Assembly (NCBI GenBank): GCA_963575645.1
Contig: OY754472.1
Location: forward strand, 29,823,401 to 29,887,400
Length of the DNA: 64,000 nucleotides
Direction of reading: 5' to 3'
Source of the DNA: Xanthostigma xanthostigma
Lineage: Eukaryota; Arthropoda; Insecta; Raphidioptera; Raphidiidae
Below are positions 27,865-63,716 of the stretch, piece after piece. Under the pieces are notes generated by a model. That model worked only from the letters and a program-made list of their open reading frames with translations. It had not been told where the DNA came from and did no database searches. A program made the position numbers and the translations under genes. Position 1 is the stretch's first letter. Every line of letters begins with the position of its first letter.

Positions 27865-28387
27865 TAGGGATGTTGAAAAAGTATCGATATATCGATATTT
27901 TTAATTCAAAACGTCGCTATTTTTAGCCGATATATTTTGATCCGATATATCGATACAAAATATTCAATATCGCAAATTGTATCAAAACGATATATATTTT
28001 TTTTTATTTATGTAACTAAAGTCACTAGAATCCAAAACCGTAATACTGGTTTGCCTAATACAATAAATAGGCTTAAAAAAATTAGTTAGAAGATAGCTTT
28101 TTAGTTTTTGATATTTTTGTAATTATTGTATTGCCTAATTAAAAGAAATACTGGTAAAAATACCTTCAATTTTATTGAGATTTTTGTACATTAAAATAAT
28201 GTAGGTACATTTTATGTAAAAATTACTATTGATAATATTAAGCTAAATACACTATTATTTTAAAAACGCAAAATTTTTTGAAAATTTGACCAATATATCG
28301 ATGTTTTTTCCTCGATATATTGACGTCGATATTGATATTTTTATAAATATCGATATATCGATATTTTTTTCACTTCTGACATCCCTA
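27865..28387. mobile_element. hAT MITE with iterated GATATATCGAT motif
   Basis: TAGGGATG tips are inverted, with GACTACGT on both flanks (27857-27864 and 28388-28395). Both subterminal regions are dominated by ATCGATATATCGATA-type strings, several copies on each side and near each tip. The centre is AT-rich with no frame. Length 523 bp. Confidence 0.87.
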
Positions 28388-28621
28388 GACTACGTGCAGA
28401 AAAGTCGAGCTTACTAAAATTTGACTGCCAGCGATAGTAGTGGAAAGACAGTAACTTATCATTGTAATATTTACATGGTAACAATGCAAATAATAATTTT
28501 TATTTGTGTGCTGTGCCATAACCTGAAAATGTTAAATGGGTAAAACATCGAACGATAATGTTTGTTGTATTGTAGACTTTTATACTGTGTAATACAGTAT
28601 AATTAAAAGAAGAATTGAAAA

Positions 28622-28892
28622 CAAGGGCGTGGATATGGAAGGTAAAGGGGGTAATTACCCCCCCCCCCCCCAGGATCATAATAATAAAAAAATAAAACTG
28701 AAAATACGAATACCTGGCTAAAAAATAAAATTTAGGAATACTTTTTGAAAAGGAATTTGTAAAATTAGTTTGGGAAGTAATAATTTGCCTGACATCTTCG
28801 AGAGTATTCTTGTGTTATATTAAAGTAAAACTTAAAAAAAATATTGATTTTTTGCTTTACCCTCCCCCCCAGAAAAAATATCTACGTTCTTG
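28622..28892. mobile_element. hAT MITE, CAAGGGCGTGGATA family, copy 1
   Basis: Left CAAGGGCGTGGATATG and inverted right CAAGAACGTAGATATT are related. Flanks ATTGAAAA / ATTGAAAG match in 7 of 8 positions. It includes a C14-type homopolymer near 28659. The reverse-oriented sister at 33300-33549 shares GGTAATTACCCCC, GGATCATAATAA-like and CTTTTTGAAAAGGAA blocks. Length 271 bp. Confidence 0.82.
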
Positions 28893-29028
28893 ATTGAAAG
28901 AGAATTTAAAGACTGATCTTCTTACAATGTCTGTATAAGGTAGATGATTTTGTTATATACAAGATAAATCTTTCTTTTTAATTGATGAATCCTATACATA
29001 ATTGTATGTCTTTGGATCAATAAATTCT

Positions 29029-29107
29029 AATTTTAATTTTAAATAAAATAACAGACAAACCTATCTGTTTGGTTTGTCTGTCTGTTATTTTATTTAGAAT
29101 TAAAATT
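29029..29107. repeat. hairpin, about 34-bp arms
   Basis: AATAAAATAACAGACAAACC pairs with GGTTTGTCTGTCTGTTATTT, with extension into AATTTTAATT / AATTAAAATT. The loop is TATCTGTTT. Either a small foldback element or an inverted duplication. Confidence 0.6.
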
Positions 29108-29494
29108 GCGAAAGACACTGCATTTATTTAAAAAAAATTTTAAACACTATTGAAGAATTTTCTTCGTGTGGATAGTTTCTTTACAAAATATTAAATTTTA
29201 TTGTTTCCAATGTAGGTGTTGGTATCGTGTTATTTTGACATATCAAACAGATTTTATCTCGAATGACAAAACTATCTATCCGTTTAATCATATATTATTT
29301 TATTTTGACTTTCCAAGGTAGATACATAACAACAATTTAATTTATTCATGATTCTTTCCATAATTTTATTAATAAAATTGACTAAATGTGTGTTACGTAT
29401 GAACAATTTTTGACGTGCTCAGGGCTTCGTATACCCAAAGAACCTTATTATTCTGCCACTGACTTCTCTACTTCGATATGAACATTTTAAGACA

Positions 29495-30115
29495 ATAAAA
29501 AAATTCCAGCCAATTGGGTGACGGGACCATTCCAACTACAAAGTGTTGACATTTGATGTAGTAAAATAAAGAAAATAAAATTTCAGATATCGCGTGAGGT
29601 GGCGTTGGTAATGACTAGTATTCAATATGATATTTGCTACTCGTTGCTATGGTTACCTACATAATATGTTCACGTCATGTAAAAATTAATCAAAGCATGC
29701 TTAACTATCATATTTCTAACAGATCTACAAAACAAAATAACAGCTGATTTTTTTTTCAAAATATTTACGAAACTATAAAGTTTAGAAAAAAAATTTAACG
29801 AAACTTTCTTGAAAAAATAAGTAGAATAATAAGCCCTCATGAAAAGTATTATATAAAAATTATATATAAAAAAAAAACACCATTATAGCATATACTTATA
29901 TCTCTTCTGCGCATACGCTCTTTATATTTTCATACCAAACATCCTCCCAAAATTTGGTTTTAATCCGCTCATCCGTTTGATCTGTATCGTACTCACAGAC
30001 AAACGGACGCACAGAGTTTTTCCAAAAATATGTTTTTTGGATTCGGGGGACCTCAGAACGAAAAGATATACTTAGTAAAATTTTGAAAAGTGATTTTTGA
30101 CCTAAACTATAGTAG
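29495..30115 (-). mobile_element. dispersed repeat family A, copy 4 (reverse)
   Basis: The reverse complement carries CCATTCC at the start, ACGATACAGATCAAACGGAT, AGAAGAGATATAAG, AAGCATGCTTTGATTAATTT, and GGAATGGTCCCGTCACCCAA. It directly abuts the left tip of the Tigger-like element. The 85-codon ORF here translates repeat sequence. Confidence 0.7.
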
Positions 30116-30288
30116 GGTAGGACGGGGGAATGGCGTTCACTTAAGGAAAACATGGTGTATTTTTTAAATTATTTATTATGAATCAAAATTAACAAGAGTA
30201 ACAAAGTCTTTAATTATCGAGTAATCAACAATTTAACAACAAAAGCATATATCTTTCACCTACTAGTAGTAGGAAAACATTATTAAAA

Positions 30289-30781
30289 AAAACTTTTTAA
30301 CAAAAAAATTAAACCGCCGAAAAACTGAAAAGCAAAAAATAATAAATCTTTTTATTTAACTAAGTTCTATTTAAGTAGTTGAACGTATGTGACAGTCTAG
30401 TATATCTAAGTAATTTTGAGTCGGCGTCAACAATCCTTCGCCGGAAATCTCTGAGAGTTCACGAAGTTAATGTCAGCGACAGAGCAACCCGAACGGGCAC
30501 ACACTGAGGGCACACGTCTTTGCGAGTGGTCGTGTGGAGAGCGCATGTTTAGAATGTTAATGTTTATCGCTGGAGATTTCACGTATCATTGTTAATTTGA
30601 TTTGGTTATTTCTTTTAGTGATCTTTGTTCATTGATTGTTTGACGCCGACTCAAAATTACTTAGATATACTAGACTGTCACATACGTTCAACTACTTAAA
30701 TAGAACTTAGTTAAATAAAAAGATTTATTATTTTTTGCTTTTCAGTTTTTCGGCGGTTTAATTTTTTTGTTAAAAAGTTTT
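30289..30781. repeat. 146-bp near-identical inverted repeat pair
   Basis: 30289-30434 and 30634-30781 are inverse copies. In what I compared, the arms differ by a single-base indel near the inner edge. The 200-bp spacer is less AT-rich and unique here. The outer AAAACTTTTTAAC tips abut A-rich DNA. This is a young foldback element or a recent inverted duplication inside the Tigger-like element. Confidence 0.75.
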
Positions 30782-30845
30782 TATTTTATAATTTTTTGTG
30801 GCTATATAATTTATAATTGTAATACACAACTCAGCATGAAAATCT

Positions 30846-31335
30846 GTGAGTGAACAATAAATCACCCCTATTTTCCCACCCTTAGGGTAGGAATTTTTTT
30901 TCCAAATTTATATGAGACCAACCTCGAGGTATACCCTATCCAATAAAAAAATAATTATCAAAATCGGACTACTCTGTAAAAAGTTATGTGTGGTCATACA
31001 TTACATTCAGTGAGTAAACAATCAATCATCCCCTGTTTTCCTACCCTTAGGGTTGGAATTTTTTTACCAAATTTATATGAGACCAACTTCGGGGTATACC
31101 CTTTCAACCAAAAAAATAATTATCAAAATCGGACTACTCTGTAAAAAGTTATGTGTGGTCATACATTACAATCAGTGAGTGAACAATCAATCATCCCCTG
31201 TTTTCCTACCCTTAGGGTTGGAATTTTTTTACCAAATTTATATGGGACCAACTTCGGGGTATACCCTTTCAAACAAAAAAATATTTATCAAAATCGGACT
31301 ACTCTGTAAAAAGTTATGCGTGGTCATACATAAAT
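30846..31335 (+). repeat. three tandem units of about 165 bp
   Basis: Units start GTGAGTGAACAAT-like at 30846, 31010 and 31175. Each carries CCCACCCTTAGGGT or CCTACCCTTAGGGT, GACCAAC(C/T)TCG(A/G)GGTATAC, and AAAATCGGACTACTCTGTAA. An A-rich tract and CTTGAGAACCTCCTCC with GTCGGTTAAAAAA follow. I recall this end from many lepidopteran repeats, so the array is probably the 3-prime part of one. Confidence 0.75.
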
Positions 31336-31464
31336 AAAAAAAAAAAAAAAAATAAAAAAAAAAAAAAAATATACGCGTCGACTTGAGAACCTCCTCCGTT
31401 TTTGTTTTTCGTCGGTTAAAAAACATGTTTGAGCGGCATTGCCCCTGACTTTGGGTAATGCCGC

Positions 31465-31715
31465 TCAGGGTCTCATAAAGAAGTGTACCCAATCCAATCT
31501 GGCTGTTTTGCTGCTTTGATCAAAATTGTTTTTGATATTGTTGCGCTCAGCAAATTTATAAACAAGTTTACGCAAATCTGCAACATTGAGTCCATAATAT
31601 AGCGAGCCCACCAACTTAACTTGTTCAGCAATTTCAGTTTCTTGCTGTTGGGTGAAAAACGGGCTTCTTCGGTCCAAGCCGCTTTAGCGGTGGTCCTTTG
31701 ACGATTTCTTGGCAT
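31465..31715 (-). pseudogene. pogo/Tigger transposase N-terminal fragment
   Basis: The upstream part reads MPRNRQRTTAKAAWTEEA, a pogo-like start with a psq-type DNA-binding helix. The next frame reads FFTQQQETEIAEQVKLVGSL then LRKLVYKFAERNNIKNNF and KTARLDWVHFFMRP, matching the CENP-B/Tc5-type helix-turn-helix with its RNNIKxxF and DWxxxF signatures. The two parts lie in different frames (about 31630-31677), and sequence ends near 31465 at an insertion. The rest of the protein, including DDE, is missing. Confidence 0.68.
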
Positions 31716-32154
31716 ATCTATCTAAAACAATAAAAAAATAAGTCACTAAGGGGTAATGGCGCTCAGATGAGCGGTATAACCCCAACCGGTCGTTTTGTAA
31801 TTAATTTGAAATTTTAAAAAAATTAGGTATACACGATTGTTGAAAATTGACTGCAATATCACAAAATAGAACAGTTTATTGGCAGAAAAGTAAAATTAGT
31901 AATTAAATAAGCATTAAAGTTTTGAACTTACCGACAAAAAACACTTAATTAAAAATTAGATCAGTGCGGCCGCAAACGAAGAAACGCTCTTCACGGTCAC
32001 ATGACGCGAGCTGACTGTCCGTTTGCAACGCTGTCTATTAGAGGCCCCCTCCCCTCGCGCTTCACTCGACGTGACGTGTCGCTGCGTTTCTTTTTGACAG
32101 AGTTACAGGGGTGAGCGCCATTACCCAGTGAGCGCCATTCCCCCTTCCTCCCCT

Positions 32155-33290
32155 ACCACTCCCCACTTATGGGTTAGCATGTTAAAATAAAAGTCAGTAC
32201 GGAATTTACCATTTATTTTTTGAAAACAAGCATGCTTTTTAAATACGAATTGCAGTGTAAGGACCATAATATAATCCTCGCTGTAGTTGCTGATTCCAAA
32301 GAAATCTTGGATAAATATATGGTTAACCTTAGTTAGGTGTAACAAGCGAAAACAACATATTGTTGTTTAAACCCGAGTTGAATGTCAGTAAACGGTCGTG
32401 ATTTACTGAAAATCTCAGCGTGAAATATATATTTTCAGCGTCGAGCTCTTTGAAAATTACTCAATAAGAAGACGTTCCTACACATATTTGCAGAGACTAG
32501 GTTCAGTGCATATTTTCATTTTTTACGTAAAATGCAGCTGTATAAATAAATTATAAGAATTATAGCTATCTTGTCCTGTTTGTCATCGCATAACTTGATT
32601 CGAGTGGATTAGGAATGTGAAAATAAGACTTGGAAATTTTTCCCAAATTCATTTTCTCCACATCGGACTTTGTCCAGCTTGAAAACTAAAGCGCTCGTTG
32701 CTGGGATAAACAGACCATTTATTTAAGTGCTTGATCCTCGATGCTTCAAGCATTTAGGTTCAGTACTTACTGCTTTGTACAGCTCTGTCTATGATGTATC
32801 TTGACCATAAAAAAATCCATATTTATAAATTTATGTTCTTTTTCTCTTTGCGGATAAATGCATAATGAACTTGCCAAAGTTCCGTGATTGTCCGCAGATA
32901 GAAACAGAACATTTATATCACCGTCTCAAATTGTTGGTTACATTGTGGCAAATAGGAACCCGTCGAGATTTGCAGATTGTCAATTCAAGACTTTTTTGTT
33001 GAATATAGTCGTTTTTCCCTGTGAATAGCAGCTCCCTTTTATGATTGCATGGCGAGACCAGCCAAAATATTTTATCTCGATAAAAAAAATCTCCAACTAG
33101 GATCACGTCGTGTGAAGTCAGAAGTCGAATGAATTGAACTGGTTGTTTCACGGTTTTATATGTACGTAGCATATATCTTAGTGGCGGCAGAAGAGGGAAT
33201 ACCGGTCTACCTTGACAACACGTTACTATTTTATGTAGATATTTGTATATAAGTATAAGTATATGTACTCATAAATATCTAATTAATTTC
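32155..33290. other. no gene recognised
   Basis: Moderately AT-rich and free of the repeats seen elsewhere. Minus-strand frames at 32121-32345 and 32918-33172 lack motifs. Confidence 0.35.
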
Positions 33291-33299
33291 CTGCCAGTT

Positions 33300-33549
33300 C
33301 AAGGATGTAAATATTTTTTTCGGGGAGGCGGGTTAAACAAAAAAAATCAATATTTTTTAAATTTTATTAATATCACACAAGAATACTCACGATGGAAGGT
33401 GTTAAGCAAAATATTAATTCCCAAACTAATTTTACACATTCCTTTTCAAAAAGTATTTCTACATTTTATTTTTTAGCCAGATATTCGTATTATTTTGATC
33501 CTGGGGGGGGGAGTAATTACCCCCTTTACCCCACATATCTACGCCCTTG
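33300..33549. mobile_element. hAT MITE, CAAGGGCGTAGATA family, copy 2
   Basis: Left CAAGGATGTAAATATTTTTT and inverted right CAAGGGCGTAGATATGTGGG are related, and TGCCAGTT flanks both sides exactly (33292-33299 and 33550-33557). The interior is the reverse complement of 28622-28892. Length 250 bp. ORFs of 77-78 codons here are element sequence in shifted frames. Confidence 0.87.
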
Positions 33550-33599
33550 TGCCAGTTTCTGTAAAGTTAAAAAAAAATCTGTTTCTACTATAATGATGA

Positions 33600-33751
33600 A
33601 AATCTGTCCGTCCTACAGAAACTTTTGAAGGGTAACTCCGATCGTCATGAAATTTGGACCCGATATTCGTCTCGGTAAACTAAGATGAACATGTTCCCCG
33701 CCCCCCATTCGTTCGTTTGCACCTGGATGAAACCGGGACGGACCGCTAGTA
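33600..33751 (-). mobile_element. family D tail (reverse)
   Basis: The reverse complement starts ACTAGCGGTCCGTCCCGG and TTTCATCCAGG, then GAACGAATGG, CATGTTCATCTTAGTTTACC, AAATTTCATGACGATCGGAG and TTACCCTTCAAAAGTTT. The same order occurs forward at 38955-39110. Confidence 0.55.
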
Positions 33752-34299
33752 TTATGTAAAAATGAGCACGATAACGCCATCTCTCAGTGTAAAAATGAAA
33801 AGTCCAAATGTATTTGTATTCCTGTATTAGTAGATCGTCTGTCTTACGGATCGCCTTGATATTGGGTCGGCAGCAACGATCCACGGATTAGCGACTTACG
33901 TGATTCGTTAAACTTAAACAGTCCACAATAGGGTTCGGTGTTTAACACATCCCTGGCACATTATGAAACAGTGCGAATGTTAAAGCTACGTATATCTTTT
34001 TCCGTAAGACTTGTCATACGAGGCCCTACACTGTAAATCCTTCAGGGAAATCATTGCGGCGTTTCTTTGCTCTCTATACATGTCTACTATCTCTATGTAT
34101 CCGCGCTGTATTTCATCTGGGGTTATGGATTCTTTATACACATGCACTTCTTGAATGCCATGGGATTAAAAAAAATGTATGCAGATATATACAGCACAGT
34201 AAAGTGAAGAGAAAATACATAAAACATTACATATATATAGACGTTAGTTCGAATAAAAAACTTGTGTTTACTTTGCTTGATTCTTCTGTTTCATTTTAT

Positions 34300-34780
34300 A
34301 CGCATTGCTACAAAAAAAGACGGACAAGTACGAGTAGAACTTGCGCCTTGGGGGTTCCGTACCGCTATTTCATAAAAATTAAAGTTCTCATGTAATAATT
34401 TGGGATATAGAATCAGAAGTTCATGATTTTCGGATTTTTTTCTTTACTTGTGCTATGCAACCTTCTTTCGCGCCAAACAAGATTCTAGGTTAACGGGAAA
34501 CATTAAAAGTTTTGATAAGTGAGTCAGTATAAAAAAGTAATCAAGTGATTTGCAATTCTAAAGACAAAAAAGATAATTGCATCGGCCAGGAATCGAACAT
34601 GGGCGCCCGCGTGGCTGACGACCATTCTACCACTTAACGCTCGTAAAGACTTGTTGCTTACACTACATTACTAAGAGCTGTCACTGCTACTCCGTGCGTA
34701 GCACGTTGCTGCGGTTTAAAAACATTTTTTTGTGACGTTACTACTTTACAGTTTTCGAATTTTTCCCTTTTCCTTTTTCT
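34300..34780 (-). mobile_element. family B copy (reverse), with a tRNA-like insert
   Basis: The reverse complement of 34655-34760 gives TGTTTTTAAACCGCAGCAAC and GTGCTACGCACGG, as in copies at 4.0 and 38.5 kb. GCACAAGTAAAG and GGTTCCGTACC-type parts lie near 34450 and 34350. Order is partly rearranged. A glycine tRNA-like module interrupts it. Confidence 0.5.
34579..34645 (-). pseudogene. tRNA-Gly(GCC)-like module
   Basis: On the minus strand, GTTAAGTGGTAGAATGGTCG, AGCCACGCGGGCGCCC and GTTCGATTCCTGGCCGATGC follow the normal tRNA-Gly order: D arm, GCC anticodon, T arm and 3-prime acceptor half. Box A and box B are recognisable, and TTTTTT follows downstream as a Pol III stop. The 5-prime acceptor half does not pair, so it is not a working tRNA gene; it is a SINE head or tRNA pseudogene. 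Confidence 0.75.
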
Positions 34781-35010
34781 CAACCCCGGAAAAAAATTCA
34801 CCCGTTTCGAGGGTGAGATTTGGCCAGAGGGGTTGGTGAGAGTCCGCGTTAATTTTTAACACCGCCACCGTTTAATATCACCGTTGTGTTCAGCATTCTG
34901 GCAAACGGGGGAGGTGAGTTAATCTCGTTCCGGCTCTAAATATTTACATTTTTCGAGGTTTTTGAAGTAAAACTTCTTTAGGCACTTGATTTGGGGAGTA
35001 ATCTGGTAAA

Positions 35011-35090
35011 TGCCTGACGAAATCGTTTAAGGAAGTGCATCATCGCGATGCCTGACGAAATCATTTACGGAAATGCATCATCGCGACGGT
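35011..35090 (+). repeat. 38-bp tandem duplication
   Basis: TGCCTGACGAAATC(G/A)TTTA and GGAA(G/A)TGCATCATCGCG occur twice (35011 and 35049). GCATCATCGCGATGC at the join is close to palindromic. A second duplicated string, GATATAAGTTAGTGA / GACATAAGTTAGTGA, follows about 70 bp apart. Confidence 0.7.
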
Positions 35091-35229
35091 GCGTGATCGT
35101 ATGAGGCGAACGGAGTTGAGAGAGAGATATAAGTTAGTGAAGATAGTAAGAGGGAGAGTTATGTTTCGTATATTGGAAGTTGAGAGGGAGACATAAGTTA
35201 GTGAGTGCGACAAAGACGGAGCATTAATC

Positions 35230-36570
35230 GAAATTCTTTTTTTTTGACATCTATTTGATGTTTAAAATGAAAACAATTGTTTTTGTATAAAAAATTATAC
35301 ATTTCATCGATTTTTTCTGCATTTTGTAACGGGAAATAATGTAGGTTAGTTAATAAATCCTTAAAAATGTATTATAAATTATGCTAATAAAAATATGTAC
35401 ATATTTTGCCTATTAATTAATCAAAAGTTATATTTTAAACATATCGTCTGTAGATACGTGCTACAGAGTGAGGTTATATTGTGTTCGATAAACTTTGAGA
35501 CGAACCGAATGCATAATATTATTGTTCGTTTATGAATTTACCATATGAGCAAATTTGAGGTATTTACGCATTATTCTTAATAAATAAATAATTATGGCAG
35601 GAAAAAGTTTAACTTCAGTCGTGTGGTCTAAAGCACACTCGCTTTTTTTCAGACACTAGTTTATTGGGGCACTATTTCATTATGCTGCATTTCGTATAAT
35701 GTGAACACAAGAACGTAAAATTCAATATCTTCTTCATTCTTTCCGAATTGATATTAAGTATACAATACAATACTTCAGAATTGACTCTTGAGAATTTTAT
35801 ATAAGTTGAAACTGGAAAATAATATGTGTTCAGTCTTAAACAAACTGAGGAATATTGATACTAAATAACTGTCTGTCATTCTATTCGCGATAAAATTCAA
35901 TACCTTCCGTTTTTTATTTTCAATACCAATTTGCGTTTGCGTGCATTCAATGTTTCGGAAATGTTTATATAAATTCAATTTCTATTTTCATACGATCTGA
36001 ATATTTATTTCAGAGATGTCGTCCCGTCTTCCAGGTTCTAATCTGTGAATTGGTGAGATTAACGGAACCCGGATTTATAATTTTGTTTTCTTGTGCCTTT
36101 TCAAGTATTTTTTGGATCAATAAATTCTAATTCTAAAGTTCAAATTACCAGAAAGTTCAAATCAGGTTAAAATTAGCGATTCAAAAGTGTAAAAACTGCA
36201 TACACTCATTCTCCGATACATTTTGTGAATATTAAAAAATTATTGAGAAAAATTTTGCAATGATTTCATTATTCTGTTTTTAATATTGTACATGATAATA
36301 TAATTTATTCGTTATTTTTGAAAAGTGAAAGAAAAAACGAAAAAATTACATGCATTAAATTAATAAACATGTAAATGTATGCAAATTATTTTTGTGCACA
36401 CTGCAATATACTTTAGACATAATATATAATTTTGCCAGAACCAATCTTATTTTAGTTGTAGCATTAAATGAAAATTGGCGAAACATGGCATATTTTAAAA
36501 TATAATAGGGACTATTAATTATTTTATTTTAATCATGAAATTATTAAAATGTGCGTTGGCAAAAGATATA
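35230..36570. other. AT-rich DNA, no gene recognised
   Basis: Long A/T-rich stretch with a 67-codon minus-strand frame and no motifs. TTTGGATCAATAAATTCTAA near 36111 recurs near 29013 and may be a retroelement tail. Confidence 0.4.
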
Positions 36571-36715
36571 ATATTGGGTTCCTTTAAATGGGTGAAGCTT
36601 TAAAAACATGGCGACGATGGAGTAAATTTTCTTCTGTCTTTATAGTATACAGTGCAATTGTGATTTTTTTTAAATGCAACAAAGTGACAAGTATCAGCAC
36701 AATATGTGATTGGGC

Positions 36716-37507
36716 TAGGGAATGCAATCCCGCAAAATAATTTCAATCCAGGTATTTGCGGGACTGAACCATTTTAGTCCCGCTGGATCCCGGTATATGC
36801 GGCATCCATCAGGGTGGACTTCTCAATCCAATCGTAATAAAGACTTAATAGCCCTTGTTTTCGTGGTTTTAATTTTAACCTATATTAAATAAGTTTTTTG
36901 ATTTATTAATACTTTTAGACATAAAGATTAAGACATAAATTGACATAGTATTGACCAAAAAATGTTTCTGTAGACGCTGCCATCGGGACAGCCGGTTTTC
37001 TTGGACTTCTGCAAGATTTGGTTCCAAAATGGCGCTGGGTGAGTCGCCCACAAGGAAATGACCAGAAGTTAAGGCTTTAAAGTTAGAGGGATTGTCAGAT
37101 AATGGAGTTATGGGTCGCGAATTCAAACAAGCTTAAATTTGATTTAGGAGTGTATACATTTCTTCATACGTTGACAACGCATTTTTTTTACTCGACGTAA
37201 ATGATACTGATACAACTCTGTACAGCCGCCTCCCGCAATCCACTGAAGTGGGGTGCGCGAGGCGGAATAAAATGCCAGGAAATTGAACAATCCAGAATAT
37301 ATAAAGTTTGAAATTTTTGAATTGTGACTTATTTGTTTGAAAAACTGTTTTTCTAATTTTGTAAGCTCATGATTAGCGCCAATAAAATATCGCTCGCTTG
37401 CCAAATTCCAGTTCACGCGCCGCCATGCGTCGAGTAGCACGTATGAACCACGTTTCTTCGAGATTAGTTCCGCAAAATGTATGCGGGACCCGGTATTGCA
37501 TTCCCTA
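36716..37507. mobile_element. hAT-like element carrying retroelement cargo
   Basis: The tips TAGGGAATGCAATCCCG and, inverted, TAGGGAATGCAATACCGG pair. Flanking 8-mers GATTGGGC / GGTTGGGC match in 7 of 8 positions. The sister TA element at 62.5 kb has the uninterrupted sequence GTTATTGGGCTGATAC at the same point, supporting insertion here. About 440 bp of the interior is a BEL/Pao integrase fossil. There is no hAT transposase. Confidence 0.78.
36960..37400 (-). mobile_element. BEL/Pao retrotransposon integrase fossil
   Basis: Minus-strand peptides include NSRPITPLSDNPSNF, LTSGHFLVGDS and ENRLSRWQRLQKHF, the well-known C-terminal integrase region of BEL/Pao elements. Weaker integrase-like sequence continues upstream. 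It is broken, lacks LTRs and the rest of pol, and is enclosed within the hAT-like termini of 36716-37507. Confidence 0.72.
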
Positions 37508-38214
37508 GGTTGGGCTGACACAAATCATCGAAAAAGGAATTTTATTGAAGGGGAACATGTATTTAATGCCGGTCATATAAAATTAGGGAAACAATTCATG
37601 TGAAACATAACCTTCAAGTAAGGTGAATTTTAATCATTTCTGTTTACAAACTTCCGATTTAAAGAGTAATCCACATGAAATAAAAGTAGTGAATACAGAT
37701 ATTATATCAATGCAGTGTTGATGAATGTTGCAAATATATATATATTATTGAAACATTACTTTATTGCAACAGGTAAGTTTCTAACCTAAAAATAGTCATC
37801 TGTCAAAATGTATTTTCAACTTTTTTTTCTATCAAAATTCTAAAATGTTATTAAATAATAATAACTATTCAATTAATAAATTAAGTAATATCTACTTACT
37901 TGGTAAAATATTTAATCATCTGCATTAAAATGACGTGCGGTACTATTACAGCCTTTTACTGTCTTTGCACAATGTGAAAACTTCACAAGTTCCATAATAA
38001 TTCATTTATTAATTTATTCAACGCTTTTTATTATTACAATAAAAAAATTCTCGATTAACAGTACCAATTCACAGTACGATTCATAATAATAATTCATTTA
38101 CCTGATTATAGTTGTAAGTTTCGCCGCCAGATAAAGTAGTCCATATAAAGGATCCCAATAGGCGATATTCTATTTTAAAAACAAACGTTGACCACTGAAG
38201 ATGTTGAGCCAATG

Positions 38215-50689: not shown

Positions 50690-50691
50690 GT

Positions 50692-52730: not shown

Positions 52731-52734
52731 GCTC

Positions 52735-53280
52735 CACAAGCAGGGAATTTTACAATATTTTTTCGTCTCAAAGTCCCCCGTATCCTAAAAACATATTTTT
52801 GGAAAAAGTCTGTGCGTCTGTTTGTCTGTGAACACGATACAGGTCAAACGGGTGAGCGAATTGAAACCAATTTTTGAGAGGATGTTAAATATGCAAATAT
52901 GAAGAGCCCTATTGTTTTTGGGCGAGAAGAGATATATATATATTCTAAAACGTTTTTTATATAATAATAATATAGGTATTATATTTTTCATAACGATTTA
53001 TTATTCTATTTATTTTTTTTAAACTTTTATTCTAAATTTTATAATTTCGGAAATATTTTGAAAATTAAAAAAATCAGTTAGATATTCCTTTGTTCTGTAG
53101 ATCTGTCACAAAGAAATTAGTTAGGTAGCTGAAAAGCATGCTTTGATTAATTTTTACATGCCGTGATAATTATATCAAATGGCAAATATCATAATATTTA
53201 ATTCTTGCCGTTACCCGCGTCACCGCAGGCGTTAACGAAAATTTTATTTTCTTATAGTGCATATCAAATGTAGGTAAATA
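52735..53280 (+). mobile_element. dispersed repeat family A, copy 5
   Basis: Carries GTCTGTGAACACGATACAGG, GAAGAGCCCTATTGTTTTTG, AAGCATGCTTTGATTAATTT and CCGTTACCCGCGTCACCGCA. It lacks a clear GGAATGGTCC end. Confidence 0.62.
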
Positions 53281-53882
53281 TTTTTGATTTTGAAAATTAG
53301 CTGTAATTTTTTAAATATTTTTCGGGAATATTTCTTTCCATTTATGTATCTAATATCTGTATAGGTATTAGTGGAATATTAATTTTCTTTGCAGCATTTC
53401 CTCAATTATAAAAGATGAAGAAATGGTCGTGAAACATTTAAATTATAAAAAATGAGTTTTTATAAAAAATGAAATTAAACAATAAAATCTGTGTTTCACA
53501 ATACTGAAATACAATAATATTGTACTCGGTTGTTCACGAACCCACATCAAAATATTTCATTTGTTATAATTACACTACCGGTCCAATTATTATAATTTCC
53601 TTTTAATTAAATACATGAGTCATAAATTTGTAATGTTTAGAATCTGGATTTTAATCAAGAATTTCTAAAAAACACGGGTTCAATTTTCTTCATTTCAGAT
53701 ATTTTCCTGAAATAATAAAATTTCAGTATTCGGTAAGATAATTGTACTTCATAGATTCGTAAATCTATATAGATACGAGAACGAAACCTTGCTTGGAAAA
53801 CGAAATTAATTCACCTGAATATTTTTCGAAAAAAAAAGACAAAACTAATTCGTATGCCCACGTATTTTATGTATATACAGAC

Positions 53883-54427
53883 TAGTGATGTGCCGGATCG
53901 TTAAAAATGTATATCCGCGGATACGGATCTGAATACGGATATTTGGTTTCAAGATCCGCGGATACGGATACGGATCTTAACTTTCTTAGAGTACGCGGCG
54001 GTAAATATTGCACATCGACCTTTGGAAAGAGACTATCTGTTATGGGAAAAAGCTATTGACCTCTTTAAGAGTTAACTCTCATAACAGATTGTCTCTTTCC
54101 AAAGATCGATGTGCAATATCTCATTATAAAGATAGTTGATTTAGTACCTTTGAGTTATGTACTATTGGTATGGTACTCACTACGATAAATGTTTGCAATA
54201 TAAAGGTGCCTATACGATTTAAAAAAATAAAAAATAATCTGAATGGAATTTAACAGGTTATCATTATTACCTAATCACCTATATATATAAAATTTCATCT
54301 ATGAATTGAAAATTAATAAGATAAAAGATCCGTAAAAGATCCGCCAAAAACTAACGGATACGGATACGGATCTTTCTTCTCCCTCGGATATCCGCGGATA
54401 GGGATACGGATATCCGGCACATCACTA
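53883..54427. mobile_element. hAT MITE with iterated GGATACGGATAC motif
   Basis: Inverted TAGTGATGTGCCGGAT tips are flanked by ATACAGAC on both sides (53875-53882 and 54428-54435). GATCCGCGGATACGGATACG-type strings fill both subterminal regions on each side. The interior contains its own inverted pair (54007-54045 and 54078-54118: ATTGCACATCGACCTTTGGA and CCAAAGATCGATGTGCAAT). Length 545 bp, no transposase. Confidence 0.88.
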
Positions 54428-54435
54428 ATACAGAC

Positions 54436-55690: not shown

Positions 55691-55696
55691 GAAAGC

Positions 55697-55855
55697 AATA
55701 AATAAAATTATCGAACAATTTTTCAGACAATATGTTGCAAAAATATTTAATTATAATTCAATATATTATATCAATGACGTTTCGATCCGAATTTATCTGG
55801 ATCTCCTTCAGGATAATTGAGGAGCAATCAGACGTTAATCAAAGATTTAATTATT
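55697..55855 (+). repeat. one-armed relative of the 45.7-kb palindrome
   Basis: Shares CAATAAATAAAATTATCGAA, CAATTTTTCAGACAATAT, ACGTTTCGATCCGAATTTAT, GGATCTCCTTCAGGA and AATCAGACGTTAATCAAAGA with 45724-46150 but lacks the inverted second arm. Confidence 0.6.
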
Positions 55856-56558
55856 TTGAGCACATTACCAAAAGAAGGATTTTTTCAGGAATTACAGATT
55901 TCCGTCTAGACGGATTAATATAAGAGGTCATATTAAACAGCTGGTGAACAATCACCTTAACAACGAAAAAACTATTCTCTGATTCATCATAACGCCATAA
56001 TAAGTCTAAATGTCACACCTGTTAACAGTCTTAAATGCAAATAGGAATAACATTGTATTAATTATTAATAGAGTTCGTATTCTAGCATTGTAAATAATAG
56101 ATTGTTCATGAATTGTTCCATAAAGAAAGGTCAATAAATCTTAAAGAACATATATACTGTGCAACATTCTTCGACCCATGTTTTGGTTTTTATTACCTGA
56201 GCCACGCATAAACACTTTCACGTTTAGTGGTTTACCCGGTGGTTATTTTAATAGTCCGTTGTGGTTTGTTAAGCGTTATTTTAAACTAGTAACTATCCAT
56301 TATTTAAATGTAACAACAACCTACTGTTTAATTTTACAGTACTCACGTTTTATCGTGGCGAGCTTTAGGTCGACCAGATTACAGTAGAACTTGATTATAA
56401 CGAATTTCAGTTATACTTTTTAGGTGTTGAATGAAATACGTGCATTAAATCTAATAAATAATAATGGCACTTGAAGACGGGAACCACGATGTCCATCGTG
56501 TTATCTGTCGCAGGGGTAAATAACCAAAACACTTCACAATAGTTTAAAACACTTCAAT

Positions 56559-56802
56559 AAAAAATTAAAAATGTGTTACGAGAACGCAATTTCTAGTTGC
56601 AAATCATACGATTGCATTTGGACAAGTGGAAAAAATGTGTTACGAGATAGTTTCACGTTTAAATATTTCGTCTGTGGAAGTTAATCTGAACGTGAAACTA
56701 TGTCGTAACACATTTTTCCTACTCATCCAAATGCAATCGTAGGATTTGCAACTAGAAGTTTCACTTCTGTAATGCGTTCTCGTAACACATTTTTAATTTT
56801 TT
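56559..56802. mobile_element. 244-bp foldback MITE
   Basis: AAAAAATTAAAAATGTGTTA and CGAGAACGC at the left mirror GCGTTCTCGTAACACATTTT and TAATTTTTT at the right. The arms pair for about 105 bp through GCAAAT, CGATTGCATTTGGA and GTTTCACGTT, with a 27-base loop. TGTGTTACGAGA occurs twice per arm. No frame; flanks not resolved. Confidence 0.78.
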
Positions 56803-56889
56803 CGCAGATTTATTGCAAACAGTAAATAAAAAAACACAAGCAAAATTTTCGCAGGTATACTTAAATAAAAAAAAAAAACAAATTGTTGC

Positions 56890-56962
56890 GCGCACCTGAC
56901 GGTAATCGAACCCAGGCCGGCGAGTGGTATGCCGGCATCCTATCACTGATCTACCAATGCTT
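56890..56962 (-). pseudogene. tRNA-Gly-like module
   Basis: The minus strand reads GGTAGATCAGTGATAGGATG, GCCGGCATACCACTCGCCGG and CCTGGGTTCGATTACCG: box A-like, a GCCGGC-stem anticodon arm with an enlarged loop, and a perfect box B core. The acceptor halves do not pair. An A-rich run lies just beyond its 3-prime side, as with the other tRNA-like modules. SINE head or tRNA pseudogene. Confidence 0.6.
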
Positions 56963-56973
56963 AGTAATAATCA

Positions 56974-57052
56974 TTGTTTTATGGATCTGTCAGAAATAAA
57001 CTAGTTCAGCATTCTTTGAATGGTCCCGTCGCCCAATTGGCTGAAATTTTTT
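56974..57052 (+). mobile_element. family A fragment
   Basis: TTTTATGGATCTGTCAGAAA, TAAACTAGTTCAGCAT, then directly GAATGGTCCCGTCGCCCAAT: two distant parts of family A are joined, so the middle is deleted. Confidence 0.65.
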
Positions 57053-57513
57053 CCTTTCTGTTGCGCAGCTGATGTCTCCTGTTCTTTTCTGCGCAGCTTA
57101 CAGACGTATTTGTGTTACGGAACCTGTACGTTTCATATGAGATACATCTTGTATATATATTGCGATAATATTATTTATTACTTACACATAATATATGCTA
57201 CATAATTTATTGATTGAATAAAATGCTTGTAATCAATTAATGTATGTCAAATAAAGAAAGTGAATTGTGCTGTCCTGCATTGTTGCGACTTTGCTCGAAG
57301 CAGCGCGGGGTTATGAAAAGATCTCTGTACATTTATTGGACTTATCTGGTATTATTCCCACGATTAATATATAATGGAATCGCAATAATTGGACATTTGA
57401 GCCTAAGTAAAAAAACATCTCAATTTCGGAACTGGCTACGTTTGGTTCTGAGTTCCGGATATCGAGAAAAGTCTATAACAAGAATACTGCATGTAGAAGA
57501 AACGTGCTTTTTT

Positions 57514-58586
57514 AACTTCCCGCTATAAAAAAAAATTTTTTTTTCAAAAATCGGGAAGTTATTGGTTTTACCCCGATTTTCGAAAATCGAGTTTTCGCCA
57601 GATCTCGACGTTTTGAGGTCCTAGGAAGCTATTGAAACTATTTTGGCGATGATGTCCGTAGGGCTGTATGTATGTGTGCGCGTGTGTGTATGGGTGTGTG
57701 TGTGTGTATGTATGTAAACCTTTTATATCTTTTGAACGGAGTGTCCGACTGAAACACGATTTGCGGCATTTGACGTGATCTTGGTGAACTTAGACTTCCT
57801 GAAAATTTGAAATGATTCGGCCCAAAAAATTTTGAGAAATATTAAAAAACAAGTTTCAAAAATTTTTAAAAATTTGTTTTTGTAAAATATTTTCTAAACT
57901 ACTCAACCGATTAATTCCAAAATCTTATCAGCTCTTCTCCTTAATAAACTGCGTCGATTTCGGCAAACCGCATCAAAATCGGTTAATTTGTTCACGAGAT
58001 ACCGTGAACGAAAAAATCGTAAAAACGTGTTTTTTTTAAAATGACTTAAAATTGTTATCAAATCAATTTTTTTGTAAGAAATTACTTTCTTAGGCTAAAA
58101 AAACTGCGTCAATCGCCGCAAACCAGATCAAAATTGGTTCATTTGTTCATGAGATAGCGTGAACGAAAAATTAGGAAAAAAGTAATTTTTTAAAATTACT
58201 CGTAAAATTCTTATCAAATCGATTTTTTTGTAATAATTTACTTTCTTAGGTTAAAAAAACTGCGTCCATCGCTGCAAACCGCATCAAAATCGGTTCATTT
58301 GTTCACGAGATATCGTGAACGAAAAATTTGTAAAAAACTTTTTTTTTAATTACTCGTAAAATTCCTTTGAGATCGATTTTTCTGTAATAAATTACTTTTT
58401 TAGGTTAAAAAATTGCGTCGACTGCCGCAAATCGCATCAAAATCGGTTCATTTGTTCATGAGATACCGTGAACGAAAATTTCGTAACAAAGTGTTTTTTT
58501 TTTTGAGCTCGTAGAGCTAAAAAATAAACTTCTTGCTATATTTTATATATTTTTGAGCGTTTTGAACTCGAAAATAGCGGGAAGTT
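57514..58586 (+). mobile_element. AACTTCCCGCTAT-ended TIR element, long form
   Basis: Starts AACTTCCCGCTATAAA and ends TTTGAACTCGAAAATAGCGG plus GAAGTT. It contains CCCCGATTTTCGAAAATCGA, a GT microsatellite (57670-57712), TATCTTTTGAACGGAGTGTC, and four tandem 155-bp units. It matches the 626-bp copy at 9996-10621 in reverse. No transposase; the frame at 57244-57528 only enters it at its end. Confidence 0.75.
57946..58510 (+). repeat. four tandem units of about 155 bp
   Basis: Units start at 57946, 58101, 58257 and 58410 with AAA(C/T)TGCGTC. Each holds GCATCAAAATCGGTT, TTTGTTCA(C/T)GAGATA and CGTGAACGAAAA, where GTTCACGAGATATCGTGAAC is palindromic. Only one unit is present in the 9996 copy. 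The array accounts for the whole length difference between the copies. Confidence 0.85.
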
Positions 58587-59080
58587 GCAGGGATGTAGGT
58601 ATACATTTTTTATGTTTTTATGATTTTGTATGAAAACAATGTAAAACATTTCTGAAATTTTATAGTATTTCAATTTTACAGTCGTCAGGTTTTTTTCTAA
58701 TTAAATTATTTTTTATGAAAATTATATATTTAAAATTAATCTAGAACATTTATTTTAATATAACTTTGAGAATATTTGCTGAATAGGTTCGATCATTTGC
58801 ATGATGATATTTGGGTTGTTCAATGCGTCACATTGCGTGGAAGAGCAGTCTCATGAAAGCGAGATGTTTGAAACGCTGGAGCCCCGAAGCACTATGCATA
58901 GTTCCATTTACCTGCGAATGTGAGAAAATTTTATAATGGATTTTATTAGTAAATATTATAAAGGAGAACGAATATAGACGTCATGAGACGTTGCGTTTCT
59001 TAAAATTCACAAACTGACTGTTATTATTGAGTCAAATATCTGAAAAATTGTAGCGAAAGAAATACTCGTTATATAATCAA

Positions 59081-59240
59081 CATTAATTGTAACAGGTCTA
59101 TTAATTGGTATCAATGCAATTTATTGAAAACATGAATTAATAGACGTGTTATAAATTGGCGCCCAACGTGAGGCGCTAATTTGTAACACGTCTATTGATT
59201 GGTATCAATGTAATTTTTTGAAAACAAAAATTAATAAGTT
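59081..59240. repeat. inverted and direct repeat block with PBS-like string
   Basis: TTGTAACA(G/C)GTCTATT(A/G)ATTGGT recurs about 93 bp apart. Around the centre, AATAGACGTGTTATAAATTGG is mirrored by TAATTTGTAACACGTCTATT. The centre reads TGGCGCCCAACGTGAGGC, like a lysine-tRNA primer-binding site of an LTR element, but the symmetry may explain it equally well. If retroviral-like, it is only a broken leader. Confidence 0.4.
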
Positions 59241-59429
59241 CGGTATAAAATAAAAAAAATTATGTAGATTTATAAAGAATATATATTGAACCGCTCGCCA
59301 ACGCGTGTTGACTCCATTGTCTGTCTTGCATCCAACGCCTCACATATCCCCCTGTGGGAACACCAGTGGCGGCGTGCATTTTAGGATGTGTCGTTACTTA
59401 TTTTTAATTTTATATAGGGACTCATTTGA

Positions 59430-59885
59430 TACTAGCCGTTGATTGCAATTTCGCTCGCGTTAATAGGTATATGTTTTTATTACTTCTTCCCGATCGCATC
59501 TGATACAGTACCGTATATTTTAAGTTTGGATGCTAATTTATAATGTTCCAAGTTTCATCAAAATCAGTTCAGTCGTGCTCGAGGCTGACATAATAGTAGG
59601 TTATGTTCCTAGTGCGTGACGACATGGCGAATGTGATATTATGTTAAAACGAGCGATACCGAGTTTTAACAGTTGTACACACGAAAGGCATATAGTATTT
59701 TTGGCACGTACCCACTTTTAAATAGCTGTCTTTCACAACATTTTTGACAGTCCATCTGTATAGGCTACGTTAAATTTTTATACATTACTATGGAACTGGT
59801 TGTACGACAACGTTTCGCATTTCTTTTGTTTTACTTTCCGCACTCGTGCGAAATTGATCATTTTACTACCGTTTGTGATAAGCAC
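59430..59885 (+). repeat. LINE-tail-like start plus family E, copy 2
   Basis: ATACTAGCCGTTGATTGC and TTCGCTCGCGTTAATAGG resemble the ACTAGC-type end. Then AGTTTCATCAAAATCAGTTC, and family E from 59617 (TATGTTAAAACGA, ACATTTTTGACAG, GTTGTACGACAACGTTT, CGCACTCGTGCGAAA). Same arrangement as 12501-13210. Confidence 0.5.
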
Positions 59886-62340
59886 GTCTTCCAATCTATT
59901 TATAGGGTATAAAATAACTAAAAAATTCCAAAAATCTCGCATGAAATCGAAATCATGTTAAGCTTAATATGAGCTTTACTTTCACCATTACGGATAATTT
60001 ATTGCATTCAATAAAATCATTTTCCGTCAAGGTTTTATTCAATTAATATACATTAAATAGCAATAATTGTTATATAGTTGCTGTTAATTTTAAAATAGTC
60101 GTAAAATAAAATAAACACAGTAGTTCTTCAACGTTCCATTAACAATTTTTTTATTAATTTAATTCTCTTTTACGATCTATAAAACGTTATTACTAGAAAT
60201 CTTATTAATATTTTATCACAAAGAACGACTTACAATTTCCTAAGAGCGACTTATACAGAAAAATGCAGTGTTAAGCACTAATTAACAGATAGTATACATA
60301 GCTATTAAGTCAAGATTTCATCTTAAGGGCGCTGCACACGATGCTGTTTTTGCCGCTGGAATCACTGCTGGAACTTGTGTTGGCTGGCGCGCTGACTGCG
60401 CATATGTAAATGACGTCACAAGATGGATTTCAAAATTAGAACCGGGGCTATTTTCCGTGATTGTTCATGTGCTTATTTTAAGCAAGAACCAACGAGAAAA
60501 CAGTATCTTGTGAGCGACATGGGCAAACGCCAACAAACAAACATGGCGTCATAGTGTGTGTTCTGTTCAGAGACAATAAACGTTCACTTTTATTACCTTT
60601 AGAACTGTCACTGCAAGAACACCAAACCTTCAAAACAAGCATCGTGTGACGCGAGCACATGAAAGCTATCACGAAAACCAGCGTCACAGCTCGCTTGAAA
60701 TTTAGCAAGGAATCTAGCGATAAAACCATTCTCGCAGGCAGCGACTGTTATCAGTTCGAAACTGAAGCGATTCTATTTACACTTGGATAGTTCCGGACTT
60801 GTATTAGCTCCTTTAAAACCATGTCTTCCCTCGGAGTTGTCTTCCGTTCTCTATAACATTGTAGCTTGATTTCATCATGGTAAACGGTCACATCCGTTCG
60901 CTCGCGAATGAGAGTGCATATGTGTATCGGGTACATGACAAGTTCAAGGTGAACTCGATGTTTTTTCTTCAACGCAAGTTGCCACTGAAACAATGGAATA
61001 TTGTTCCGTTCTTCGGAAATATCTAAAGAAAGGGAACGTCCTCGTTATTTTCGTCTTTGGAACAGTTTTGCGTAAGCCTAACTTTTAGGCTTCAGAGTTG
61101 ATGTTGAAACTTTTGTCCTGTAATATTTTGAAATAGTTAATTATTGATTCATTCAAATTCCTATTATTGTTTAATTATTCATTCCTTGAGTTAAAACGGA
61201 GAACGAGGTATAATATGGTTGAAAAAATAAAACGCCATGTTTGTAGCTTCCTATGGAACAAAAACGTAGGACACGCAATCTTTAGTTTCTTCTACTAAAT
61301 TCTTATTTGCTTGCGTGTCTAAAAAGCTTTGCGCTTTTTACTTCTATTTTTAAATTTCATAAACAAGTATAGCATATTTAAATTTCATTTATTTACTAAG
61401 TAATCTTGTAAGAAGTGGTGTTTTTATGGTTCTTTCAAGGGAAAATATAAATTGGCTAAAGTAAAAATGTAAAAAAATATTTGCAGAATCATAAAAGAGC
61501 ACGCAATAACAAAATATCAAATAGGTACAATTTTTTTTACATTTTACATGTGAAATGGCGGATTCAACATTGCATTTAGCCTAGACTCCACCCATAATGT
61601 CAAATCCCAATAGTAAGGTACCAAATCTTTTAAAAGTTGAACATCATTACCTCATTTAATGAAGCAGCAACGCCATGAAACAATATAAATCACACCGGTC
61701 CCATGTATAAGAAGTATGCCTCACTTCTTAAATGTGGAATATAGAACTGTAAGTTGGCGAGTTAACTAATTTCTCTATACTAATACCGCGGTAATTATCC
61801 CCACAATCTTCCGTTACTCTGTCCTGCCACGCCTAAAGAAGTGTCACTTCTGAAAAAAAATTGTCATCCTAGCCACTACAAACACTTATCGGTATTATTA
61901 GTATAATATATTCCCAGCTTATAAAATACTATGGAATCACGTCTCACGCTGGGATATTGCCGGTATAAATCACATTAATGATATTCTATATAATATAATA
62001 TCGCGTCCTCTATTATTATATTACTTTTTACTTACACTATGCACTCTTGTTCATTTCTGCCCACAGTGTGTTATAATATAGTGTAATTAACGAAACTGTC
62101 GACTTCATGATACACGAAATATAGATGTCAAATCGTGAGCACAATTCGCGAAAGGTCAGAGCAACGTTGTTGCGATACAGATTTCTCGATGTCCGTTATA
62201 GTAGGAGCGGCGACGGTAAAAAATTGAGGATGAAACATTTAATGGCAAGTTTGGGTAGGAACAGTCCATAATACAAAATAAAAAAAATTATATTTGTTTA
62301 ATATTTGTGCGGATATATTTCTTATAATTATAATTCTTAT
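59886..62340. other. no gene recognised
   Basis: Two and a half kilobases without repeats matched elsewhere in the window. The patch at 60330-60980 is GC-richer (GGGCGCTGCACACGATGCTG near 60327) with minus-strand frames of 80-83 codons lacking motifs. It may hold an old MITE or host sequence. Confidence 0.35.
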
Positions 62341-62344
62341 TATA

Positions 62345-63716
62345 TTGGGGTCCTTCAAATCGGTGGAGCTTTAAAAACATGGTGACGATGGGGTATCATT
62401 TCCCGTAGTTACTTTACTATATGGTTACTATATAGATAGTAAACAGTGCAATTGTGAATTTTTTTAAGTGCAGTAAAATGATAAGTATCAGCACAATATG
62501 TAGGTTATTGGGCTGATACAAATCACCGAAAAAGAAATTTCCTTGAAGGGGAACGTATATTTAATGCTGACCATATCATAAAATTAGGCAAAATTTCAAT
62601 TGAAACAGAACCTTCAAGTAAGATGAATTTTAATTGTTTCTGTTTACAAACTTCCGATTTAAAGAGTAATCCATAGGGCTTCACACGAGACGAGAGTAGA
62701 CGAGACTATCAAAAATCTCGTCTCGGTCTCGTCAATCCCTAGAAAATTCAGTCTCGTTCAAGTCTCGGTCTCGTCTCGTTACCAGATGTCTCGTCTCGTC
62801 TCGCTTAATTTTAAATAATGATAATATATATTCAAACTTAAGATATAGAAATTTGCAAGGATAAATATTTATGATAAAAGATACGTTACAATAAGAAGTG
62901 TTAACAAGTTGAAGTAAGAATGTGAAAAAATCATACTCTGTTGAGTTTTTTTTAAATTTACTATAAAATATGTCACAGATGGTCACCAGATTTTATATTT
63001 TGTAAAATATATTGTTTTTTATTTCGACCTTTTCTAATTTTTCCAATAAAAACTTTATAAAAAAAAATTTAACGAGACCATAAACGAGACTCCGGGTTGC
63101 ACTGTATGTGGTCTCGGTATCGTCCAAAATATTTACCAAAACGTATCGTCTCGTCTCGTCTCGCTTTTCCGAGACGAGAACGAGACGAGACGAGAAAAAT
63201 CTCGCTCTCGTGTGAAGCCCTAGTAATCCACAAGAAATAAAAGTGGTAAATAGAGATATATATCAATGCAGTGTCAATGAACGTTGCAAACATATTATTG
63301 AAACATTACTTTATTGCAACAGGTAAGTTCCCAACCTAAAAATAATCATCTGTCAAAATGTATTTTTAACTTTATTTTTTTCCATCAAAATTTTTAATGT
63401 TATTTAATAATAATAACTATACAATTAATAAATTAAGTTTTCAATACTAAGACTAAGTATAATACCTACTTGGTAAAATAACTAATCATCTGCATTGAAA
63501 TGACATTTTACTAACTTTTTATTTGTGTTTGCACGAGGTGAAAACTTCGCAGATTCCATAATAAGTCATTTATTAATTTATCAACGTTTTTTTATTATTA
63601 TTATAAAAAAAACACGATTAACAATACTCATTGACAGTACGATTCATATACTTGTTTCTCACGTGTTAGTAAATTTCGCAGCCTGTAGATAGAGTAGTCC
63701 ATATCGCGGATCCCCA
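62345..63716. mobile_element. TA-flanked TIR element, copy 2 (split by a hAT MITE)
   Basis: The tips TTGGGGTCCTTCAAAT and, inverted, TGGGGATCCGCGATATGG lie between TA dinucleotides (62343-62344 and 63717-63718). It aligns along its length with 36574-38158. Removing the 549-bp MITE and one copy of its target duplication leaves about 815 bp. GAGTAATCCACAAGAAATAA, the rejoined sequence, matches GAGTAATCCACATGAAATAA in copy 1. Confidence 0.75.
62674..63222. mobile_element. hAT MITE with iterated CGTCTCG motif
   Basis: Inverted TAGGGCTTCACACGAGA tips are flanked by GTAATCCA on both sides (62666-62673 and 63223-63230). TCTCGTCTCG / CGAGACGAGA strings occur in runs in both subterminal regions, in both orientations. 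The centre is plain AT-rich sequence. Length 549 bp, no transposase. Frames at 62732-62986 and 63069-63293 are byproducts. Confidence 0.9.

Follow-up and report, generated by a model that had tools for sequence, protein, structure and literature searches.

The elements reported here have their closest described counterparts in hAT transposons with short repeats next to their tips. According to the cited sections of the study on Hermes, a hAT element of the house fly, subterminal repeats are bound by the BED domains of its transposase, with cooperativity at one pair, and repeats of this kind are ascribed to most hAT transposons (PMC10368747). In the cited part of the work on Herves, a hAT element of Anopheles, a subterminal motif that is strongest as CGATTCAT suffices for transposase binding, and the authors state that binding sites differ between hAT transposases, ensuring specificity (PMC3143072). 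For maize Ac/Ds, the portion of the source used here describes, as in our case, non-autonomous derivatives that carry the tips and some subterminal repeats of the coding element (PMC3260210). CGGBP-type hAT proteins, which combine zf-BED with the Hermes DNA-binding domain, recognize diverse words, usually with CGG or CGC, and the motifs of four of them match their own subterminal regions, as given in the sections consulted (PMC8097297). Here, we analyze a stretch of 64,000 nucleotides (the window) from the 623 Mb genome of Xanthostigma xanthostigma (contig OY754472.1, positions 29,823,401 to 29,887,400, forward strand). It contains three miniature inverted-repeat transposable elements (MITEs), E1, E2 and E3, whose ends are filled with different iterated words. 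We consider them, with a probability of roughly 0.85, to be non-autonomous hAT MITEs of three families, in which the arrays are the predicted binding sites of each family's transposase.

Like Hermes, the system described here combines a hAT transposase bearing a BED finger with several short repeats near each tip, but the Hermes repeats are, in the cited sections, 4-nt AAG(T/C) and asymmetric, whereas the words found here are 6-12 nt long, dense and often CpG-centred (PMC10368747). Herves likewise has a short subterminal motif; the cited part of that study treats one element, and many families within one genome are considered here (PMC3143072). The CGGBP-type work, as far as the cited sections go, uses protein-array data from many species, whereas we surveyed arrays within one genome (PMC8097297). 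A literature search that left subscription journals largely outside yielded no study that catalogues array words by hAT family within one genome. Maize Ac/Ds differs in being a plant element with a different motif word, the subterminal motif of Ac being AAACGG. The principle is already in print for Ac, Tol2, Hermes, Herves and the CGGBP proteins, and the published Hermes and Herves results mean that the idea proposed in the initial annotation, made from the sequence alone, was known in principle. What is new here is the within-genome survey, the sister families that keep or change their arrays, and the CpG-centred words.

E1 (27865-28387, + strand, 523 bp) has the array word ATATCGATAT (TATCGATA) and the tips TAGGGATGT, and is flanked by the target site duplication (TSD) GACTACGT at 27857-27864 and 28388-28395. 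E2 (53883-54427, + strand, 545 bp) has the words CGGATA and CGGATC and the tips TAGTGATGTGCCGGAT between copies of the TSD ATACAGAC at 53875-53882 and 54428-54435. E3 (62674-63222, + strand, 549 bp) has the word CGAGAC/GTCTCG and the tips TAGGGCTTCACACGAGA, with the TSD GTAATCCA at 62666-62673 and 63223-63230. A paralogue of the E3 surroundings at 37580-37828 (+ strand) represents the empty site, with a single GTAATCCA and no insertion, as seen from the repeat families D13 and D16 and a side-by-side comparison. Terminal inverted repeats of hAT elements start with the consensus YARNG. Both ends of the three elements start with TAGGG (E1), TAGTG (E2) and TAGGG (E3), and all three 8-bp TSDs are exact, as expected for hAT elements. 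The three hAT MITEs of the initial annotation, with their perfect TSDs and different motif arrays at both ends, can thus be read directly from the DNA. A screen of the window for TSDs and tips that was blind to the arrays returned eight candidates, including E1, E2 and E3; the same screen with the TSD register shifted returned 3, 3, 6, 4 and 5, so that some of the other five candidates may be due to chance. When the window and the retrieved loci were screened more strictly, 42 candidates resulted, 31 of which are E1- or E2-type, compared to 1, 2, 0 and 0 in shifted registers, with TAGTGATG-tipped pairs excluded from this null.

The array words are strongly concentrated at the ends of the elements. 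Per 200-nt end, ATATCG occurs 6 and 5 times in E1 (0.10 expected), CGGATA 5 and 5 times in E2 (0.08 expected), and CGAGAC 11 and 9 times in E3 (0.03 expected), and mapping of the motif positions revealed centres free of array words. Beyond the tips, the two ends of each element align at just 50-59%, which indicates word arrays and not long inverted repeats. When array scores were compared with 58 held-out control segments, one segment scored above E3, four above E1 and five above E2, and four of these five are hAT arrays themselves (L029, L057, L046, L003). Using a null derived from the local base composition (dinucleotide background), E1 and E2 fell below the 95% value of the control. Because the presence of an array depresses the score under this null, it was abandoned in favour of background word counts, although the control for these itself contains hAT arrays. 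Separate from its end arrays, the centre of E2 (element bases ~122-236) holds an imperfect inverted repeat of ~115 nt.

Within one element, both ends use the same vocabulary. The similarity between ends of the same element had a median of 0.72 (range 0.13 to 0.83, n=8) and reached at least 0.44 in seven of the eight elements, whereas ends of different elements had a median of 0.01 (n=56), with crosses between E1 and its coding relative L103 reaching 0.76-0.78. Among 40320 possible end pairings, the agreement of the true one is reached by only 2, of which one is the true pairing and the other swaps E1 with L103. The exception is W4, a further hAT element of the window, whose ends share little vocabulary (0.13). 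If non-aligning ends have a common word, something must hold this word common, and one protein that reads both ends would be the simplest reason. The arrays could also be microsatellite-like sequence that expands by slippage and plays no role in transposition. Array counts in E1 copies do vary, and in one E1 copy, L029 (G000:C9:1742693-1744826), the 3' subterminal part has grown to more than 2 kb of ~70-nt tandem units; this is a MITE end seeding a satellite. Against slippage stand the identity of the word at both non-aligning ends and in both orientations, its absence from the centres of the window copies, its constancy in the E2 and E3 copies kept for comparison, and its presence in the coding relative of E3. 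We therefore regard slippage as most improbable.

Family copies were retrieved across the genome as the best-scoring ones, i.e. 30 loci each for E1 and E2 (chosen from 40 scored ones out of 291 and 278 candidates, respectively) and 24 for E3, where one search scored 40 of 154 candidates. Exact genome matches numbered 86 for the 25-nt left tip of E1, 8210 for the 16-nt tip of E2 and 274 for the 17-nt tip of E3, with none for the reversed controls. The elements are thus short, non-coding and multi-copy, as is typical for MITEs, and the possession of the ends of a coding element is demonstrated for E3 only. Both tips were located in 25 of 30 E1, 30 of 30 E2 and 24 of 24 E3 loci. TSDs were exact in 11 E1, 17 E2 and 22 E3 loci, had one mismatch in 5, 6 and 2 and two mismatches in 3, 1 and 0, which gives 16/30, 23/30 and 24/24 loci with at most one mismatch. 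Ac-type hAT elements prefer the target nTnnnnAn. E2 targets follow this pattern, with T at position 2 in 24/24 and A at position 7 in 21/24 of the loci used, and agreement is weak for E1 (T 11/19, A 8/19) and E3 (T 14/24, A 13/24).

Mean divergence from the family consensus was 5.0% for E1, 2.5% for E2 and 1.3% for E3, with one outlier each included in the E1 and E3 means. These outliers (L025 for E1, L085 for E3) were removed before motifs were compared, which left 18 E1, 24 E2 and 24 E3 rows. In all kept E2 copies, CGGAT is present at least 6 times at either end, and kept E3 copies have at least 10 CGAGAC at one end and at least 7 at the other; kept E1 copies are looser, with 0-9 CGATAT on the left and 4-11 on the right. 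The suggestion that the motif is fixed per family consequently holds for the E2 and E3 copies examined and less strictly for E1. The similar lengths of the three window elements, which had also been pointed out, are correct but carry little significance, because kept E3 copies range from 529 to 862 bp; among the first 100 E3-tip places listed, paired tips lie 372 to 2127 bp apart. Two loci display unusual arrangements. In L056 (1500-2725), an E2 copy lies beside a hAT-like element of another type (2054-2725, with TTCCCGG as the word read by eye), and the 8-mer ATTGCTAC occurs before, between and after the two; here, the TSD of one hAT served as the insertion site of a second one. In L119 (G000:C1:5181330-5183000), two oppositely oriented E2 copies are separated by ~570 bp, and the inner tip of each has a mismatch.

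A coding relative was found for E3. A search for the hAT dimerisation domain (150 of 1851 candidates scored) revealed a PF05699 match within a longer E3 copy, and two such copies, L081 (862 bp) and L085 (813 bp, with exact TSDs), hold a fragmentary transposase C-terminus between E3 ends. The extra DNA of the longer copies L079, L080, L081 and L085 lies inside base 159. Placing the length changes of E3 by alignment region settled nothing, as the boundary coincides with the insertion point. Searching with the E3-type transposase fragment identified L084 on C10, a 586-aa open frame with PF05699 at 1.8e-21, followed by the E3 array and tip, and bases 1-159 of E3 match its 3' end with 100% identity. 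Coding sequence for the hAT C-terminal dimerisation domain therefore occurs together with E3 ends, of which L081 and L085 have both and L084 has one. From the shared ends and this identity, we conclude that E3 is a deletion derivative of an L084-type transposase-coding hAT element. In L090, a zf-BED match (21.2 bits, cut-off 20.6) lies upstream of the E3-type frame, and the open frame that holds this BED finger just upstream is probably a separate exon. For L084 and L088, the only relative of solved structure that was identified is Hermes.

For E1, a coding relative is located at C10:10885150-10889450 (L103/L110/L120). It lies between two copies of the TSD TCTCTTAT, each of its ends holds an ATATCG array, and its vocabulary similarity to E1 is 0.66-0.78. 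Its transposase comprises a 424-aa frame, with the upstream part spread over several frames, and these breaks may reflect introns or decay. For E2, the word GATCCG is common to L088 and L089, and the tip TAGTGATG is common to E2 and one L089 end, which hints at a possible relationship of E2 to the L088/L089 clade. We infer that E1 and E2 had coding parents like that of E3. Of the autonomous hAT copies with the same tips and arrays that the initial annotation had suggested looking for, E3 has a transposase-coding candidate with its tip and array (L084), and E1 has a coding relative with other tips. The proposal that all three elements belong to one clan was not supported: the E3 transposase sits on a very long branch of the transposase tree, the nearest coding relative of E1 is also remote, and no E2 transposase was found.

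The subterminal arrays were then compared with other hAT families of this genome. For 42 hAT C-terminal hits, the adjoining 3' sequence was retrieved and inspected by eye. In 20 of these regions, taken as 17 families, iterated words lie beside a hAT-like tip, with L131 being a weaker case. Scores of at least 7.35 were reached by 20 of the 42 regions, 18 of them among the 20 picked by eye, compared to 5 of 58 control segments, and four of these five represent hAT arrays; with the local dinucleotide background score, 16 of the 42 exceeded the 95% value of the control. The words read by eye were CGAGAC in L084, GTATCGATAC in L087 and L127, GAGCCG in L088, GATCCG and GAACGG in L089, CGAATACC in L091, AACCGGTTAACCGAT in L092, AATCGAG in L093, ACTATCGATA in L097, AATCGATT in L100, GCGAATG in L102, ATATCGATAT in L103, AAACCGGTTT in L105, GCGGAGG in L106, TATCGG in L107 and L117, and TTTCGG in L126. 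An N-terminal BED finger (PF02892) scored above the cut-off in L090, L088, L089, L133 and L134, so that this hallmark of hAT transposases is present among the coding relatives; the scanned L087 frame gave no match.

In combination, these data support well the presence of putative family-typical transposase-binding arrays, and the array words are probably what each family's transposase recognizes. Each MITE would retain the cis-acting ends of its coding parent and would have lost the coding middle. The subterminal arrays would provide multiple sites for the N-terminal BED zinc finger of the family's transposase, which would assemble on both ends, cut at the conserved tips and leave the 8-bp duplications. 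Because many hAT families have nearly the same tip, the array word would provide specificity and would keep each transposase largely on its own DNA. We infer that the words are binding sites and that specificity is their function, and the same applies to the manner of their divergence.

Several observations weigh against this reading. By eye, array and tip could not be recognized clearly in 21 of the 42 hAT C-terminal regions, including L086 and the doubtful cases L099 and L116; truncation, decay and host genes may be among the reasons. Against the uncleaned control, only 5 of the 42 regions exceed the 95% value and none exceeds the maximum. Low end similarity is not confined to W4: leaving aside the E1- and E2-type sets, 11 TSD-plus-tip candidates remain, and 5 of them (8090-8631, L042, L060, L051 and W4) have ends that share little vocabulary (0.10-0.25). 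After insertion, motif sites of E1 and E2 are no better conserved than other sites, which is expected of inert copies; divergence at motif, other subterminal and central sites was 0.027/0.025/0.023 for E1, 0.027/0.023/0.025 for E2 and 0.003/0.012/0.003 for E3. Inspection of 2.5 kb upstream did not reveal the 5' end of the L084 element. The coding relative of E1 has other tips (TAGGGAAGGGCA/TAGGGATGGGCA compared to TAGGGATGTTGA/TAGGGATGTCAG in E1) and is thus a relative and no demonstrated parent. No coding E2 element was found in the first 100 of the 8210 tip places, in three longer E2 loci or in the 42 hAT 3' regions, and the three longer loci contain only E2 sequence and other DNA, as judged by eye and BLAST to E2, with no domain scan. 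Finally, the arrays of L103 and L097 are alike (0.51) at a transposase identity of 28%, and 8 of the 56 mismatched end pairs reach the value of 0.13 seen between the two ends of W4. The words are therefore not strictly private, and a word can recur despite distant kinship.

How the words diverged was addressed by comparing the transposase C-terminus and one 3' end each of 16 families. These had been chosen for a visible array or tip, so that the comparison is silent on array-less families. Array similarity had a median of 0.04, with 3 of 120 pairs above 0.4. The view that each family has its own recognition code is supported insofar as arrays mostly differ, and only its strict form is contradicted by L103/L097. 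Array similarity follows transposase identity (Mantel r 0.41, p 0.0004), whereas no such relation was seen for the initial 11 nt of the tip (r 0.09, p 0.23). We think that this correlation rests mainly on two sister pairs that keep their arrays, L107/L117 (similarity 0.55) and L087/L127 (0.52). In the transposase tree, 3 of 14 inner branches are well supported and most are weak. In all but 4 of the 120 pairs, C-terminal identity is at most 0.38, so arrays had long to drift, and this, together with the two array-keeping pairs, would also fit words that differ by descent and drift in old families, with no selection for private recognition. Two further sister pairs at nearly the same identity speak against drift: L102/L106 (identity 0.48) and L088/L089 (0.47) have array similarities of 0.06 and 0.23, but 8 and 7 of 11 tip positions are still identical. 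Drift alone, which concerns only the evolutionary half of our reading, is a real possibility, though on balance a doubtful one.

Most of the words contain CpG. In all 30 ends counted, which are non-independent and mostly picked by sight, CpG lies above the flank mean (median 9 compared to 5.26 per 146 nt; observed/expected ratio 2.09 compared to 1.30), and CG is part of the top 6-mer in 26 of 30 ends compared to 42 of 177 control segments. This richness, and the position of the arrays on either side of the gene in coding elements, would fit arrays that are mainly regulatory or host-interacting, e.g. promoter elements or targets of host zinc fingers or silencing. However, arrays are found at both ends, also in gene-less MITEs, and differ by transposase family, which makes such a role quite improbable as an alternative to transposase recognition. 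A methylation-reading code in particular is disfavoured, because CpG is undepleted in background sequence (observed/expected ratio 1.27) and CpG transitions are not raised in the copies (E1, 21/714 vs 60/1523; E2, 24/1314 vs 88/3204; E3, 3/1532 vs 18/3024).

One series of related ends suggests how binding words may change. At the two L102 ends, GCGAATG occurs 9 and 8 times and GCGGATG is absent; the MITE L057, whose tip is nearly the same, contains GCGGATG 6 and 6 times and GCGAATG 0 and 2 times; and the single end in hand of L106, the transposase sister of L102, contains GCGGAGG 6 times and GCGGATG 2 times. This looks like word replacement by single steps through mixed arrays. Such a series is no proof of stepwise change, because in 76 of 231 end pairs some repeated 7-mer of one end differs by at most one base from one of the other. 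Diversification by turnover, as initially proposed, is thus suggested by array-changing sister families and mixed arrays, and weakened by how common one-base neighbours are. Tentatively, and with more doubt than confidence, we propose that at least 16 hAT families coexist behind similar tips, each with a CpG-centred array as its address, and that the whole address may change in some sister lineages, perhaps by single-base steps, driven by avoiding cross-mobilisation and by shedding parasitic MITEs.

Additional features were observed in the window and genome. W4 (36716-37507, + strand, 792 bp), which had been overlooked at first, has the tips TAGGGAATGCAA (12/12) and the TSD GATTGGGC/GGTTGGGC with one mismatch, and looser words (GTCCCGC/GCGGGAC) were read in it by eye. 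The candidate at 8090-8631 is hAT-like, with the tips CAGTGATTCCCA/CAGAGGTCCCCA and the exact TSD GTTTACAC, and no dense array was seen in it. A large, near-perfect inverted repeat at 6485-7168 (arms of 217 and 128 nt, 97-98%) is a possible foldback element. Outside the window, L086 (G000:C4:16662500-16665500) encodes a 633-aa hAT frame with a BED-like start by eye and no array seen in its 3' flank; an equally long and equally scoring counterpart lies on C5, and L086 would represent either an array-less family or a domesticated gene. Of the 31 hAT dimerisation-domain hits with a frame of at least 300 aa (hand count among the 150 hits listed), 20 lie at ~9.0-16.3 Mb of G000:C10 and 21 on C10 as a whole, though C10 makes up 6.6% of the genome. 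This region is a reservoir of long hAT frames, and might be sex-linked, heterochromatic or piRNA-like.

Although the binding of subterminal repeats by hAT transposases is established, the joint change of a protein and its many sites is not. One genome with many readable hAT words and with sister pairs of families provides a data set for the code of the BED finger. With the same data set, the evolution of such a recognition code becomes testable, including whether escape from MITE parasitism drives it.

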